Below are positions 50,845 to 57,700 of a stretch of DNA of 64,000 nucleotides, piece by piece; positions within the stretch are counted from its first letter, which is position 1; each line of letters opens with the position of its first letter. The notes below the pieces were generated by a model. That model was not told the origin of the DNA and did no database searches. It was given only the letters and a program-made list of their open reading frames with translations. Source of the stretch: Halobacteriales archaeon QS_6_71_20 (lineage in GTDB: Archaea > Halobacteriota > Halobacteria > Halobacteriales > Haloferacaceae); the NCBI GenBank assembly GCA_003020945.1, contig PXRU01000004.1:8222-72221 (forward strand). Reading direction: 5' to 3'. The position numbers were made by a program, and so were the translations under genes.

Positions 50845-50932
50845 CTCCCGCCCCGTTGTTCGACGCCCGCCGGACGCGGGCGGCCGTGTGAACCCGGCGC
50901 ATCCGGGAGTCGGAACGCGGGGTTTATACCCG

Positions 50933-51255: not shown

Positions 51256-51275
51256 ATGACGATCTTCAAGACGAA
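51256..51275 (+). repeat. Left attachment site: severed rpoF start
   Basis: The sequence ATGACGATCTTCAAGACGAA encodes MTIFKTN and stops at the next codon (TAG). Eleven bases (TTCAAGACGAA, 51265-51275) are identical to the right end, with three mismatches in the nine bases before. A 13-base inverted repeat, CACTGG-T-CCAGTG (51299-51311), lies just inside and could be an integrase arm site. Confidence 0.85.
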
Positions 51276-51366
51276 TTAGCGCGTAACTTATCGAAATTCA
51301 CTGGTCCAGTGGTTATACAGCGACAGCCACGAAGATTATTTTAGAGTACAGTCATATCAAGACTTG

Positions 51367-51561
51367 ATGATAGAACGAGCTATTGAGGGATTGGTTTCGG
51401 CTATACTACTCGTAATTGCTGGTGCTGTCATCGCAACTGTTCTTGGTGCTAATACAGGTACTGTGACAGGTATATCTACTTTTCTTGTTGACATTATAGT
51501 TAGAGTTGGTGTCATCGTGATAATTGGTACCATGATTATTGGAATAGTAAAAAACTTGTAA
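51367..51561 (+). CDS. Small hydrophobic protein of the integrated element
   Basis: The 64-residue protein has an N-terminal amphipathic start (MIERAIEGLVSAILLVIAGA) and two transmembrane segments (about 7-30 and 38-61) rich in Ile, Val and Gly. It is AT-rich in codon use, unlike the host genes. Its stop is one base before the ATG of the next small membrane protein, so they form an operon. ATG at 51367 is preferred over the TTG just upstream. It could be a membrane anchor or pore component; this is inference. Confidence 0.6.
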   Translation: MIERAIEGLVSAILLVIAGAVIATVLGANTGTVTGISTFLVDIIVRVGVIVIIGTMIIGIVKNL

Positions 51562-51562
51562 T

Positions 51563-51847
51563 ATGGACAGAGATGTTCTATCAGAAATTCAGTCCAGATT
51601 AAGCAGATACCTTGCAGACGTGAGAAGCGAATTGGATAAAGATTCGATGGATCTCATTGAGCAGGTGGTTGTTTTAATCACGGGCGGCGTTTTAGGCGGT
51701 GAAGCGCACAATATCGCTCAATCGTCTGGACCAATCTGGATTGAGCTTCTCGGGTTCATAGTGCTCTTGCTAACTGGAATAATGACAGTCGGAGCGATGC
51801 ATATCACGGTGGCTACTGCACGTGTATCAGCAGAAACCGACGACTGA
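51563..51847 (+). CDS. Small membrane protein of the integrated element
   Basis: The 94-residue protein has a helical charged N-terminus (VLSEIQSRLSRYLADVRSEL) followed by two hydrophobic segments (about 34-52 and 57-83) and an acidic tail. It begins one base after the preceding gene and shares its AT-rich codon use. No named family is recognised. Confidence 0.6.
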   Translation: MDRDVLSEIQSRLSRYLADVRSELDKDSMDLIEQVVVLITGGVLGGEAHNIAQSSGPIWIELLGFIVLLLTGIMTVGAMHITVATARVSAETDD

Positions 51848-52285
51848 GCGTTCGCACCCCGCCCCGTCGAAAGTAGCGAACGGACGGGTACGTGGGAACT
51901 GGGGTGAGGGCATCCCCCGTGCCATGCACACGGCCCGCTCGTTCGAGCGTACATGGCTATCAGTGGGCGCAGAATCCGCTTAGGACGGACTCCATCGAAT
52001 ACGCCCCAACACACTCACAAGACCGTAGAGGCGAAGCAGACCTACGTGAGCTGGGACACACGAGCGATAGCGCCCGACTTTGAAGTACACCGAGGGGCAG
52101 CCACCTCGCGAACGAGTGGGGTCGATACAAACCTAACGTGTGGTCCGACCGTGGCGACGCACACACGCACGCACGTGCATAGAAGCCGACAGTCAAAGAT
52201 AATTCAATGCACATGTATGCACAGAAGTGGTCAGGTATGTCCCCGTGACGCACGGCGATTGGTGCCTATCCCTCTTCGTAGTCTA
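51848..52285. other. 438-base spacer with repeats; possible replication origin
   Basis: No reading frame has the acidic composition expected of this genome. Short alternating CA/CG tracts (ACACACGCACGCACGTGCAT, about 52159-52178) and a partly palindromic GTGCAT...AATGCACATGTATGCAC arrangement (52175-52221) occur beside the 3' end of the rep gene. Rolling-circle plasmids carry a double-strand origin with a hairpin near rep, so this is a candidate. Confidence 0.35.
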
Positions 52286-53308
52286 TCATTCGTCGGGGAA
52301 GCCGTGTGAAAACGATACGGACGCTTTTGATGACGCGAACGTCCATGTCGCCGTCGCCCACGCGCACCTTTCGGCTGACCCTTCGCCACGGATGGGATCG
52401 GCAATGGCGACACGGGGTATCTGCGTGGCGACGTAGGTTGTTGCCCTGGTTGGGGGGAGTTTGAACGCGCCGCCTTCAGAAGCGTATCCAAGAGACGTTT
52501 CCGTGGCGAGAGGCGGGTCGTGTTCAACTCGGACAGCGCCGTCGTTCCCGTCGGGGCTATACTCGTGCGCTTTCTCTGTCACGTGATCGCCGTGTGTCTC
52601 GACGTGGTCGTCCACGAGCGCATCAAACCACATAGGCTCGACGGCGTCGGCGGGGTCGTCGACGATCACGAGCAAATGCATGTGCGGAGTGGCGAACGGC
52701 GTCTCCGTTCCCGCAACTACTTTCGCGTATTCATACGCGAAACCACGCTTACGCCTCAGCTGGTAGCGCAAACGCTTACTCACTGACTCCCACGACGCTG
52801 AGAGATTGTCTCGTAGTGTCATCGGGGTGAACAAACCCCCGTCGGGACGAATGGGTGACTGTCGAAGCGTGATCAGTGCGATAGTGGCGTCGTCGTATTC
52901 GTCGCGCAGTCGACGGTCCCCGTCCAAGAGGCGCGCATACGTGCCCATCTTACGGTCGAGACGAAGGCCAGCATGGTCGCCTTGATCTGTGCCCCGAACA
53001 AGCCTCTGTACCGTCCCCCGTGCTTCACATACAGTCGGGACACGGGGCTTTGGGCACCAGTCGGCGATGTCGCTTTCTTCGTCGCGACATCCGCCACAGC
53101 CGCACGCGACCAGTGGGCCTGCATCGAGGGCTTCCACCGAAGGGGCCAGTGGGCGGGTAGATGCATTTTCGCAAAGTAGGCCATAGTCGTCATGGCTTCG
53201 AGGGACGGGGTCGCCCCCAATGTGGTCGGCGCTGTCAGAGAGGTTCCACCTGAAGGCACTGCTCGTCGTATACTTGGACTCGGTCGTGGTTGTAGAGGGC
53301 GCGAGCAT
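52286..53308 (-). CDS. Rolling-circle replication initiator (HUH Rep)
   Basis: The 340-residue protein has the metal-binding HUH motif (His209-Met-His211 in TPHMHLLVIVDDP) and a later Tyr motif (Tyr292 in TTYVATQIPRV) that would attack DNA at the origin. The N-terminal third has five cysteines (positions 69, 71, 74, 85 and 94) that may bind zinc, and KRLRYQLRRKRGFAYEYAKV lies before the HUH motif. This matches the Rep proteins of small haloarchaeal plasmids. A TATA-like sequence at 53349-53355 (CTATATCC on this strand) lies about 41 bases upstream of the ATG at 53308. Confidence 0.8.
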   Translation of the reverse strand: MLAPSTTTTESKYTTSSAFRWNLSDSADHIGGDPVPRSHDDYGLLCENASTRPLAPSVEALDAGPLVACGCGGCRDEESDIADWCPKPRVPTVCEARGTVQRLVRGTDQGDHAGLRLDRKMGTYARLLDGDRRLRDEYDDATIALITLRQSPIRPDGGLFTPMTLRDNLSASWESVSKRLRYQLRRKRGFAYEYAKVVAGTETPFATPHMHLLVIVDDPADAVEPMWFDALVDDHVETHGDHVTEKAHEYSPDGNDGAVRVEHDPPLATETSLGYASEGGAFKLPPTRATTYVATQIPRVAIADPIRGEGSAERCAWATATWTFASSKASVSFSHGFPDE

Positions 53309-53715
53309 GGTCGTAGCCCGCGAGGTCTACGCAGACGCGACGAGAGGGGATATAGACGAAGCTACGTCCGTGAGAGGAACGCAAGCTTCAAGTGGACGGG
53401 AACCGTAGGAACAACCGAGTAGCGGAGTTCCACGGCGACGTGCTGTCACACGTCTTGCCCACCCATCCTTCTTCGACGGTCGATGTGCAGAGCCTCGCTC
53501 AGAGTCAAGGAACGGCCGCGCACGGATAGTTGTTTTTACAATGTGTCAGACAGTGTGAACTTGCACTGAGGTCGATATATCAGAAGTATGCGCGTCACCT
53601 CAGGGAAAGATTCTAATCCCTGTTGATCCTACTATAATCGCTATCAGTCCCTAATCTTCGGGGTGAAATTCCCTTGTCAACAAAATCACCACGGACTGAC
53701 AGTAGCGACGACAGA
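53309..53715. other. 407-base spacer with rep promoter and inverted repeats
   Basis: This AT-richer region between rep and the integrase contains the divergent rep promoter. It also has a TACTATAATCGCTAT stretch (about 53629-53643) and an ATTCTAATCCCTG...AGTCCCTAATCTTC pair (about 53609-53660). The repeats could be operators or the plasmid's incompatibility region. I see no convincing gene before the 29-codon frame at its right end. Confidence 0.35.
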
Positions 53716-53805
53716 ATGCCCGAAATCACGGAAGCCGACGTTCAACTACTACGCGAGCGGGGAAATCCCCTTGCGGATGTTGCTGAGGTGTTGGCGTCGA
53801 TGTGA
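53716..53805 (+). CDS. Possible 29-residue protein of the integrated element
   Basis: A short frame reads MPEITEADVQLLRERGNPLA then DVAEVLASM. It is acidic and predicted to form two helices separated by a turn, like half of a helix-turn-helix. A TATA-like CAAAATC at 53681-53687 lies about 29 bases before the ATG, at the leaderless distance. It ends ten bases before the integrase stop on the other strand. The composition and promoter favour expression, but the size leaves chance possible. Confidence 0.4.
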   Translation: MPEITEADVQLLRERGNPLADVAEVLASM

Positions 53806-53814
53806 GTTCGGGCG

Positions 53815-55146
53815 CTACTCGTCGTTCAACAGTGCGTCAATGACCGCCTCCCGAGCCTCAGGATCGCTGTCCAATCGTTCCTTGATGCGACGGATGGCGT
53901 CGCGTTCCTCGTCGCCGCTGGCTTGTAAGGCTGCTTCGGTCACGTTGCTTTGGATACGATCCTGGGCCGATGCAGCATCGGGTGTGAGTGCAGCTCCGCA
54001 TCGTGGACACGCTTTCGCGTTGTCTGTCGGCAAGGGTTCGTCGCATCGCGGACAGTAATCGGGAGTGAGAGAACTTTCTTCCTCAGGCATACGCAGTCCT
54101 GCGGCCTCTTGAGCGTTCTTTCTGAAGTCCTCGGCGGAGAGGTGAGAATACGTACTTTCCATGACAGTTGAGTCAGACTCGTGGCCGATGAGGAACTTCA
54201 CGTTCTGATCATCAAGACCGTATTCTTTCTTCGCAAGCGTGACGAAATTATGGCGGAGAGCGTGGGGGTGAAGCGGCTTATCGATGTCTGCGCTCTCTTT
54301 CGCCGACTTTGTGACACGTTCTATCGTTCGATGGGCGACAGGCTCGTGTGGATCAGGATTTCCGTACTTCGGTTTGCCCATGATTAGATATGCGTCATCA
54401 TCGTCGGAGGCGGGATGATAATTCAACCAGTCACGCACCGCCCCAGCGGCTCCAAGAAGGGGGCGTTCGGCATTCGGCTTTGCAATATCCTTCAGCCCCT
54501 CCGCGTCCGTGTTGAATCGGAACACGCCGCCGTCATCACGGTGTGGATCGACATCTCCGACTCGAAGCGTTCGTAGGGCCGTGTTGCGCATCCCTGTGTA
54601 CAACAGGATGTCGATGATCGCTTGGTCCCGCGGGTGTTCGGGGGCCGCACGGAGTCGTTCGATCTCCTCGGATGTGAGCATATCATCGGGGTTGACCTTC
54701 GGGTCTTCCTGCTCGAACACCACTATCTCACCGTGTTCTGCTGGCAGGTCGCCGTGATAACGGTAGAAGATACGGACCGTATTCTGATAGGCCCGAACGC
54801 TACCTTTTGTCAACCCCCTGTCTTTGACACCCTCAAGTTCACCGTGTAGCATCTGCTCGCTGATGTGATTGATGTCGAATGCATCAGCAGACGACAGTTC
54901 CGTGTGTCGAGCATACCGAGTCAAATGCCCACACCAATTCGAGAGCGTCGACGCCGAACGTGGCTTCTCCAAATGACTGGGGGCGTCGGGCCAGGAAGGC
55001 GGCGTCACCGTCGGACGGCCCTCGTCGAATGCGAACGTCAATTCTCGGATGCGATTCGCGTCTTCTTTTGATACCTCTCCTTCGTCAGCGGCTTCCGACA
55101 GGTTTTCGCGCTTGCGCCTCAAGTCGGATTCATAGTCCCGTGACAT
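53815..55146 (-). CDS. Tyrosine integrase with C-terminal zinc ribbon
   Basis: The 443-residue protein has a core-binding domain (about 60-145: TLSNWCGHLTRYARHTELSS, KGSVRAYQNTVRIFYRYHGD) and a catalytic domain with Arg187 (LLYTGMRNTALRTL), His295-x-x-Arg298 (HPHALRHNFVT), His322 (GHES) and the nucleophile Tyr333 (ESTYSHLS). A C-terminal zinc ribbon follows (CPRCDEPLPTDNAKACPRCG, Cys365-383). It should integrate and excise the element at the rpoF start. Its ATG at 55146 faces the right attachment site 65 bases away, the usual place for an integrase gene. Confidence 0.9.
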   Translation of the reverse strand: MSRDYESDLRRKRENLSEAADEGEVSKEDANRIRELTFAFDEGRPTVTPPSWPDAPSHLEKPRSASTLSNWCGHLTRYARHTELSSADAFDINHISEQMLHGELEGVKDRGLTKGSVRAYQNTVRIFYRYHGDLPAEHGEIVVFEQEDPKVNPDDMLTSEEIERLRAAPEHPRDQAIIDILLYTGMRNTALRTLRVGDVDPHRDDGGVFRFNTDAEGLKDIAKPNAERPLLGAAGAVRDWLNYHPASDDDDAYLIMGKPKYGNPDPHEPVAHRTIERVTKSAKESADIDKPLHPHALRHNFVTLAKKEYGLDDQNVKFLIGHESDSTVMESTYSHLSAEDFRKNAQEAAGLRMPEEESSLTPDYCPRCDEPLPTDNAKACPRCGAALTPDAASAQDRIQSNVTEAALQASGDEERDAIRRIKERLDSDPEAREAVIDALLNDE

Positions 55147-55182
55147 CGTCTACTCCATCCCCCATGTCAAACGTATCGAGGG

Positions 55183-55188
55183 TAAATG
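55183..55188 (+). promoter_or_regulatory. Element-borne promoter now driving rpoF
   Basis: TAAATG within GGTAAATGTA lies about 25 bases before the rpoF ATG at 55211, the leaderless distance. Since rpl21e is now 4 kb away, this sequence between the integrase gene and the right attachment site is the best candidate for rpoF expression. It is a weak match to the consensus. Confidence 0.4.
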
Positions 55189-55210
55189 TACTCGTGAATC
55201 TCGACAACCA

Positions 55211-55230
55211 ATGAGCATATTCAAGACGAA
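55211..55230 (+). repeat. Right attachment site: restored rpoF start
   Basis: ATGAGCATATTCAAGACGAA is the start of the intact rpoF gene (MSIFKTK). It differs from the left copy at three positions in the first nine bases and matches over the last eleven (55220-55230). The crossover must lie in or near the identical 11 bases. Confidence 0.85.
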
Positions 55231-55567
55231 GCTCGACGAGGAGTACCTCACCGTCTCCCAGACGAAGGAGCTGCTGGGGAGAGTCGAGGACGAGCGCGCG
55301 GTCGACGAGGAGCGGGAGATGCGCTACGAGCTGGCGCGCGCGCTCGACCACATCAACCGCTTCGCGTTCCTCGGCCCCGAGGAGTCGATGGACCTCGTCG
55401 AGGAGCTGCTGGAGCTCGAGAAGGTCGACGAGCCCCAGGCGTACAAGATCGCCGACCTCCTCCCCCGGGACCGGACGGAGCTGCGCGCGGTGTACGCCCA
55501 GGAGCGGTACGCCCTCGACGGCGACGAGCTGGACGAGGTGCTGAACGTCGTCGCGAAGTACGTCTGA
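55211..55567 (+). CDS. rpoF: RNA polymerase subunit F (Rpb4 homologue)
   Basis: The 118-residue protein is the archaeal Rpb4-like subunit, forming the RNA polymerase stalk with subunit E. Seen are LDEEYLTVSQTKELLGRVED, YELARALDHINRFAFLGPEE, LVEELLELEKVDEPQAYKIA and DLLPRDRTELRAVYAQERYA. Codons 1-7 (MSIFKTK) come from the integrated element; the severed original began MTIFKT. The protein differs from the original only at residue 2, so the subunit should be functional. Confidence 0.95.
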   Translation: MSIFKTKLDEEYLTVSQTKELLGRVEDERAVDEEREMRYELARALDHINRFAFLGPEESMDLVEELLELEKVDEPQAYKIADLLPRDRTELRAVYAQERYALDGDELDEVLNVVAKYV

Positions 55568-56316: not shown

Positions 56317-56320
56317 ACTA

Positions 56321-56370
56321 CCCCACCCTACTCCCTCGGCGCATACGCGCCTCGGTCCTTGAGGGTGGGG
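56321..56370 (-). ncRNA. IS right-end stem-loop and probable omega RNA 3' end
   Basis: CCCCACCCT (56321-56329) and AGGGTGGGG (56362-56370) form a perfect nine-base stem, with an inner hairpin GGCGC-ATAC-GCGCC (56338-56351). In IS605-family elements this end also forms the 3' part of the omega RNA that guides TnpB, with the guide taken from sequence just outside the element. Here that would be the 3' end of the DUF655 gene. Confidence 0.6.
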
Positions 56371-56392
56371 TTTTGATATGGACTCCCAGCGA

Positions 56393-57700
56393 TCAATCTC
56401 CGGCAACAGGCCGGTGACTCTCGCCGTTCAGCGTCCCACCATTCACACGCACGTCTACTGGTGCGTCTCCGCTCCCCGACTTGGGCGAGGAACGGAGTCT
56501 GTGTATTCGCTTTCGGGCGTACCGTAGCCCGATGTTTTTCGCGGCGTTGTAGTCCGCGTTCACTTCGTACCCACACTTCTGGCACTCAAACTGCTTGCCG
56601 TGGCGGTTATGGTCGTGGGTGAACCCACAGTCCGTCCGAGAACAGCGTTGGGACGTGTGGTTCGGCTCGACTTGCTCCACGGAGACACCGCGCTCAGGAG
56701 CCTTGTAGGAGACGTACTCAAACAAGCGTCGAAACGCCCAGACGTGGTGCCACTTCGCTTGCGGGAGCCGCTCTCGAATGTCGGTCAGGCCCTCAAACAC
56801 GATAGCGTCGCAGTCGTGTTCAACGGCTTCCGTGACGATTTCGTTGGCGACTGTGTGGATGTACTGTTTCCGCCACGCTTCTTCGCGTTTCCCGAGGCGG
56901 AGCAGGGCGTTGTGGGCGGCTTGCGTGCCGCACTGTTGCATCTCGCCACGTCGCTTCTCAAACTCGCGGCACCAGTGGTCGTAGTCGTCGCCCTGCCAGA
57001 ACGTGCCGGTTGAGGCGACGGCGAGACTGTTGACGCCGAGGTCGATACCGAGGACCGTTTGGCTGGGGTGCTCGGTATCTGACGAAACCTCCGCGCCGTC
57101 GTCCCCAGAACGCTTCGCGTTCTGGTGTGCGAACGAGACGCTTCGCGTCTCGTCAACGCCGTCGATCCGCCGAGTCGAAATGTTAAGGTAAAACTCGTCG
57201 GTCGCCGCGTCGTATCGAAGCGTACTCTCACGGAACTCGTAGTCCTCGGAGAGTACGTACCACTCGTAGGGCGTCGGGCTGTCTGCCGGGAGAACGAACG
57301 ACGGTTCGACCCGCCCCTCAACGGTTGCCAACGAAACTTTGTTCCGGTAGAAAGTCGCGCTCCGCGTGTCATAGTCCATTGTTTCGGCGGTGAACGTCGG
57401 ACAAGAGACACGCTGTCCCTTCTTCCACCGCTCGACAACGCTCTTGATGGCTTCGACGGCGCGACGAATCGCGGCTTGGACGAGTTGTGCTTGTAGCTCC
57501 GTCTCCTCACGGAGGTCGGAGTATAGGGAGTCACGAACCTGCCGTTTGTTGGTCTTGCATTCGGTGTACGAGGTGTCGGACCAACAGTAGTCGGCGGTTC
57601 GATTCGCGCAGTACAGGTACTGGCCGGCGGTTCGGTGGAGTGCGTCGCGGTGCTCGTCGGAAACATCGAGTTTCACGACGGCAGTTCGACGCACGTCCAT
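56393..57700 (-). CDS. tnpB: RNA-guided endonuclease TnpB
   Basis: The 435-residue protein has the split RuvC nuclease: Asp220 (VLGIDLGVNS), Glu303 (AIVFEGLTDI) and Asp383 (EVNADYNAAKNIGL). The zinc finger lies between the last two (Cys353, Cys358, Cys373, Cys376). All catalytic residues are intact, so it could be an active guide-RNA-directed nuclease. The N-terminal half carries the helical and beta regions that hold the omega RNA. The ATG at 57700 (MDVRRTAVVKLDVSDEHRDA) is typical. Confidence 0.93.
   Translation of the reverse strand: MDVRRTAVVKLDVSDEHRDALHRTAGQYLYCANRTADYCWSDTSYTECKTNKRQVRDSLYSDLREETELQAQLVQAAIRRAVEAIKSVVERWKKGQRVSCPTFTAETMDYDTRSATFYRNKVSLATVEGRVEPSFVLPADSPTPYEWYVLSEDYEFRESTLRYDAATDEFYLNISTRRIDGVDETRSVSFAHQNAKRSGDDGAEVSSDTEHPSQTVLGIDLGVNSLAVASTGTFWQGDDYDHWCREFEKRRGEMQQCGTQAAHNALLRLGKREEAWRKQYIHTVANEIVTEAVEHDCDAIVFEGLTDIRERLPQAKWHHVWAFRRLFEYVSYKAPERGVSVEQVEPNHTSQRCSRTDCGFTHDHNRHGKQFECQKCGYEVNADYNAAKNIGLRYARKRIHRLRSSPKSGSGDAPVDVRVNGGTLNGESHRPVAGD

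Follow-up and report, generated by a model that had tools for sequence, protein, structure and literature searches.

Capture of the start codon, and probable replacement of the promoter, of rpoF by an integrative element in a haloarchaeon

The window, a 64,000-nucleotide stretch of DNA from Halobacteriales archaeon QS_6_71_20, contains the haloarchaeal gene cluster in the order rpl21e, rpoF, DUF655 and rRNA dimethylase. Between the end of rpl21e (51251) and the start of rpoF (55211) lies an insert of low GC content, 0.42-0.61 as against about 0.70 in the host flanks. The features of the region are listed below. Promoter scores are those of a core-promoter matrix of 14 positions, trained on 234 upstream regions from the window and related haloarchaeal genomes, which recovers the BRE and the TTTAT motif.

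50916-50929, plus strand: promoter-like site of rpl21e, CGCGGGGTTTATAC, 7.68 bits
50958-51251, plus strand: rpl21e, first gene of the native operon (Pfam Ribosomal_L21e, 3.7e-27)
51256-51279, plus strand: attL, the displaced native start of rpoF, now a dead minigene MTIFKTN* (ATGACGATCTTCAAGACGAATTAG)
51265-51275, plus strand: attL core TTCAAGACGAA, identical to 55220-55230 as a direct repeat
51276-55219, no strand: body of the element, from the core-to-core period of 3955 bp and the GC shift
51364-51561, plus strand: small membrane-protein-like ORF of 65 aa, no Pfam family, promoter-like ACGAAGATTATTTT at 51329
51563-51847, plus strand: small membrane-protein-like ORF of 94 aa, no Pfam family above the cut-off
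52286-53308, minus strand: Rep-like protein with the HUH motif HMHLLVI (Pfam DUF1424, 2.2e-8)
53815-55146, minus strand: tyrosine integrase of 443 aa with a C-terminal zinc ribbon (Pfam Phage_integrase, 2.6e-21)
55096-55109, plus strand: best-scoring plus-strand promoter-like site ahead of rpoF, CGACAGGTTTTCGC, inside the 5' end of the integrase gene, 8.78 bits
55147-55210, no strand: element-derived intergenic region from integrase to rpoF, 64 bp by coordinates
55183-55188, plus strand: TAAATG, weak TATA-like, 2.4 bits
55211-55219, plus strand: element-supplied start codon and codons 2-3 of rpoF, ATG AGC ATA, from comparison with native starts
55211-55567, plus strand: rpoF (Rpo4) in a restored reading frame that opens ATGAGCATATTCAAGACGAAgctc / ATGAGCATATTCAAGACGAAGCTC (Pfam RNA_pol_Rpb4, 1.2e-15)
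55220-55230, plus strand: attR core TTCAAGACGAA, identical to the attL core

The cargo of the element is the tyrosine integrase, the DUF1424 HUH Rep and the two small ORFs. The rep and int genes are located between rpl21e and rpoF and run antisense to both. The DUF1424 match of Rep spans profile positions 76-216 of 329 only, and the protein has a 37% match in Natronobacterium, the replication protein of a plasmid of 2.5 kb. A DUF1424-family HUH Rep is a feature of the small rolling-circle plasmids of haloarchaea; the Rep match, together with the size of the element, makes a plasmid-like nature the likely reading. The integrase gene is whole after integration, and its catalytic R-HxxR-H-Y set is intact, with R187, H295, R298, H322 and Y333 invariant in the integrase alignment. 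No RNA families were found in the region, and no tRNA gene in the window.

The element sits within the first codons of rpoF, and the recombination core corresponds to codons 4-7. The stop of rpl21e is followed by CGCG and then by the relic rpoF start ATGACGATCTTCAAGACGAAttag at 51256. The 25 nt of attL, GAGTGACGCGATGACGATCTTCAAG, are identical to the uninterrupted rpoF starts of the same genus. The two rpoF starts of the window have the 11-bp core in common and are identical at 17 of 20 nt. When the host flanks are joined (655 nt), they align over 650-655 nt with 10/10 same-genus genomes at 84-87% identity, ungapped or with one gap base, and the joined gene reads MTIFKTKLDEEY. The locus thus has two further features of a tyrosine-recombinase integrative element, direct-repeat att cores (51265 and 55220) and an empty site in relatives. 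A single match to rpoF was obtained in the genome, which makes the gene single copy.

Native RpoF begins with MTIFKEK in 68 of 80 Halobacteria genomes and with MTIFKTK in one; Ser-2 occurs in none (0/80). Since native starts are of the MTIFK type and lack Ser-2, the ATG and the next two codons of the present rpoF are element-borne, as is its whole immediate 5' flank. Codon 6 (ACG) may be the native or the element copy. A start codon and 5' flank taken from the element are characteristic of promoter-replacing 5'-end integrants, the behaviour known from dusA.

The initial annotation had held that uninterrupted rpoF is co-transcribed with rpl21e, starting four bases after its stop. The relatives bear this out: the two genes are uninterrupted and spaced by -4 to 12 nt in 80/80 Halobacteria genomes (10 of the same genus), a sample drawn mostly from the best-scoring rpoF matches, in which distant lineages are under-represented. 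The spacing suggests that translation of rpoF is natively coupled to that of rpl21e. The median promoter score in the 80 relatives is 7.7 upstream of native rpl21e versus 0.6 upstream of native rpoF, and therefore only rpl21e has a recognisable promoter in front of it in the native operon. Because the element lies in between, 4 kb of DNA including two antisense genes now part rpoF from this promoter.

The region left to rpoF had been correctly measured as 64 bases from the integrase start (55146, minus strand) to the rpoF ATG, and TAAATG had been proposed as its TATA-like box. The position of this hexamer fits: it occupies positions -28 to -23 relative to the ATG and is centred about 25 nt upstream, and the AT peak of the 234 upstream regions is found at -29 to -26, as expected of leaderless genes. 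The score does not fit, being equalled by 31% of background shuffles and by 60% of shuffles of the same 64-bp region, with a dinucleotide-preserving P of 0.73. As a proven rpoF promoter TAAATG is ruled out on this chance-level score (P about 0.3-0.7). The CGACAGGTTTTCGC site has a predicted start near 55132 and a leader of about 79 nt, and is not significant (P 0.12 in 300 nt). The best signals of the 64-bp region are on the minus strand, GAGTACATTTACCC with 7.2 bits and CGATACGTTTGACA with 6.5 bits; these candidate integrase promoters are not significant locally (P 0.15). The reverse strand of TAAATG, CATTTA, forms part of the better one, GAGTACATTTACCC. The AT tract at 55183-55188 would read better as a candidate integrase promoter on the minus strand than as an rpoF box, and its place there is the sole hint in the sequence at a linkage of excision with host transcription.

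Many real start sites of Haloferax have no recognisable elements (PMC4983044), so rpoF may have a promoter even though no clear box is seen. Leaderless transcripts amount to 72% in Haloferax volcanii (PMC4983044), and a leader is therefore not required for rpoF. TAAATG itself is no evidence for a promoter. The earlier proposal that both the promoter and the start codon of rpoF are replaced thus stands for the start codon, the 5' flank and the 4-kb separation; no significant promoter was located, and the general claim of promoter replacement is likely right.

It is quite probable that the element-borne upstream region replaces the operon promoter without any need to assume regulation by the element. 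A 3,955-bp plasmid-like integrative element entered rpoF through tyrosine-integrase recombination at the 11-bp core, which lies in codons 4-7. Because the attP of the element imitates the 5' end of rpoF (ATGAGCATATTCAAGACGAA), attR rebuilds a complete RpoF on the element ATG, and the native start is left at attL as a minigene of 7 codons. Comparison with the relatives shows that rpoF is split in this way both from the rpl21e promoter and from its probable translational coupling to rpl21e. Transcription of rpoF would most likely come from the last 64-120 bp of the element and yield a leaderless or short-leader mRNA, and excision would put the gene back in its operon.

Homologous integrases are present in 71/392 Halobacteria genomes, the closest 51% identical to that of the element. 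They include the haloarchaeal zinc-ribbon tyrosine integrases (HRTV-27, about 70 genomes), whose better relatives are 35-51% identical. Related loci sought with the integrase in genome contigs and viral contigs, and with rpoF in viral contigs, gave no matches. The recognised targets of the related integrases, in other clades, are mostly gene 3' ends or interiors, unlike that of the rpoF element. An automatic att search over 20 loci of related integrases gave clear pairs at two 3'-end targets only, owing to the shortness of the cores (about 9-11 bp). No other element at rpoF was found among the related-integrase loci and genomes examined. No relative of Rep was found in the other integrase loci, and the integrases therefore travel on different elements.

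In another genus a related integrase, 43% identical, has entered RPA at its start codon; RPA is a DNA-replication gene, named from its sequence as a single-strand DNA-binding protein. Two genomes of this genus, G298 and G055, have integrases that are 80% identical to each other, with the integrase about 55 nt divergent from the RPA start. Most of 30 other RPA loci have a native promoter motif of the CGCTTAAGC / CCTTATGC type just before the gene; G298 and G055 have none directly upstream. In G055 the native promoter, GACAACGCTTAAGCGC...ATGGGTGCG|GTTTAG, lies 6.3 kb off, at the opposite end of the insertion; at attR element sequence is followed by ATGGGTGCG|ATAGAGG and the remainder of RPA. The far end of the G298 element was sought and not found, and displacement of the native promoter is proven in G055 only. 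The RPA insertion in G055 is, like that at rpoF, start-codon capture with displacement of the native promoter, and it gives the rpoF case independent support.

In the integrase tree, in which the branch of the rpoF integrase is long, the rpoF and RPA integrases fall into different groups; the group on the rpoF side excludes the RPA pair with support 100/99. The habit of start-codon capture therefore probably arose twice. It is doubtful that several lineages have independently captured the start codons of essential information-processing genes, as at rpoF and RPA, and placed them behind a promoter region that also serves the integrase, so coupling the state of the element to the transcription or replication capacity of the host.

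Integrase clades were seen to track target sites: the clade of loci L005-L013 adjoins a displaced 3' end that codes for ...NKQSGIADFM*, and its integrase genes are preceded by a conserved GGAATTnnnCAnAGGTCA-like tract. The integrases closest to that of the window (about 47-51%; L003, L004 and L072) lie inside an apparent glutathione S-transferase-like gene (HTHFMCN...). Two further related integrases (L117 and L118) lie divergent from two ORFs, one peptidase-like and one thioesterase-like, about 190-200 nt from their starts; these are possible 5'-end targets.

Expression of rpoF could be accounted for in other ways. Read-through from the rpl21e promoter, or from a plus-strand promoter of the element before 51364, would give an RNA that covers rep and int in antisense over about 3-4 kb before it reaches rpoF. 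The rpl21e promoter is good at 7.68 bits and the plus-strand site at 51329 scores 7.63 bits, but such an RNA has two full antisense genes to cross, translational coupling is lost at the stop of MTIFKTN*, and at RPA the displaced native promoter is likewise several kilobases off; this explanation is unlikely. Still less is to be expected of a regulatory switch, in which one AT tract (55183-55188) serves both the integrase promoter and the rpoF promoter, the two genes are expressed in a mutually exclusive manner, and excision alters the level of RpoF, as with SpyCI and mutL. The best minus-strand integrase promoter candidate does use that tract and SpyCI provides a precedent (PMC3430984); however, the P values of the minus-strand and plus-strand candidates in this region are 0.15 and 0.73, and no regulator gene was recognised in the element.

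An equally small probability is given to the view that expression of the integrated copy is of little consequence, either because polyploid cells hold excised copies with an intact operon or because low RpoF is tolerated. The integrase looks intact, and Haloferax volcanii is polyploid, with about 20 chromosome copies (PMC11276520). Against this, a complete restored frame with an element-borne start codon would be expected to come under selection only where the integrated copy is in use, and the genome assembly contains the integrated form only. Replacement of the operon promoter by the upstream region of the element is the preferred reading.

Integration that replaces a promoter has been described before, in dusA islands, pTN3-type tRNA integrants and SpyCI/mutL; here it would concern protein-coding information-processing genes in haloarchaea. 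In dusA-associated genomic islands and prophages the integrase acts at the 5' end of the gene and supplies a new 5' end and a putative new promoter (PMC4482086). As at rpoF, the 5' end of a coding gene is replaced by element sequence. The dusA islands, however, are bacterial, larger, of a different integrase family and directed at a tRNA-modification gene, whereas the rpoF element is archaeal and its target is an RNA polymerase subunit within a ribosomal-protein operon. By analogy the rpoF case would work like the dusA islands, with no implication of membership in the dusA integrase family.

Archaeal integrants of the pTN3 type target the 5' half of a tRNA, which is expressed from the integrase promoter (PMC8371274). 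They also integrate at the 5' part of the target, but the target is a tRNA and the integrase is split (suicidal). The rpoF element is ruled out as an integrant of this type, its integrase being whole and its target rpoF. In Streptococcus pyogenes, SpyCI integrates between operon genes and severs mutL from its promoter; strain Manfredo has a promoter within int that rescues mutL (PMC3430984). The downstream operon gene is cut off from its promoter in both systems; SpyCI, which is growth-regulated, normally silences mutL, whereas the reading frame of rpoF is restored. Thaumarchaeal integrated elements also have protein-coding targets, but at 3'-distal regions in 14/14 cases (PMC6563490), unlike the 5' end entered at rpoF. 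Literature searches on rpoF and integrases, haloarchaeal proviruses and archaeal integrases turned up no integration at rpoF.

The rpoF case shows that a core RNA polymerase subunit can survive the takeover of its start codon and translation context, and probably of its promoter as well, by an archaeal mobile element. Takeovers of this kind have happened in two or more distinct integrase clades, as seen at rpoF and RPA. To the archaeal integrases, known chiefly from insertions at tRNA genes and at the 3' ends of genes, this adds a mode that targets start codons. Integrated and excised rpoF form a natural testable pair for the effect of RpoF level on haloarchaeal transcription, and the case bears on how leaderless promoters arise from mobile DNA.

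A TnpB-like gene is found at 56393-57700 of the window on the minus strand (Cas12f1-like TNB 2.6e-21, OrfB_IS605 2e-8). It sits between DUF655 and rRNA dimethylase, with a hairpin-rich 3' flank near 56317-56380, and is thus a second mobile insertion in the same operon region.
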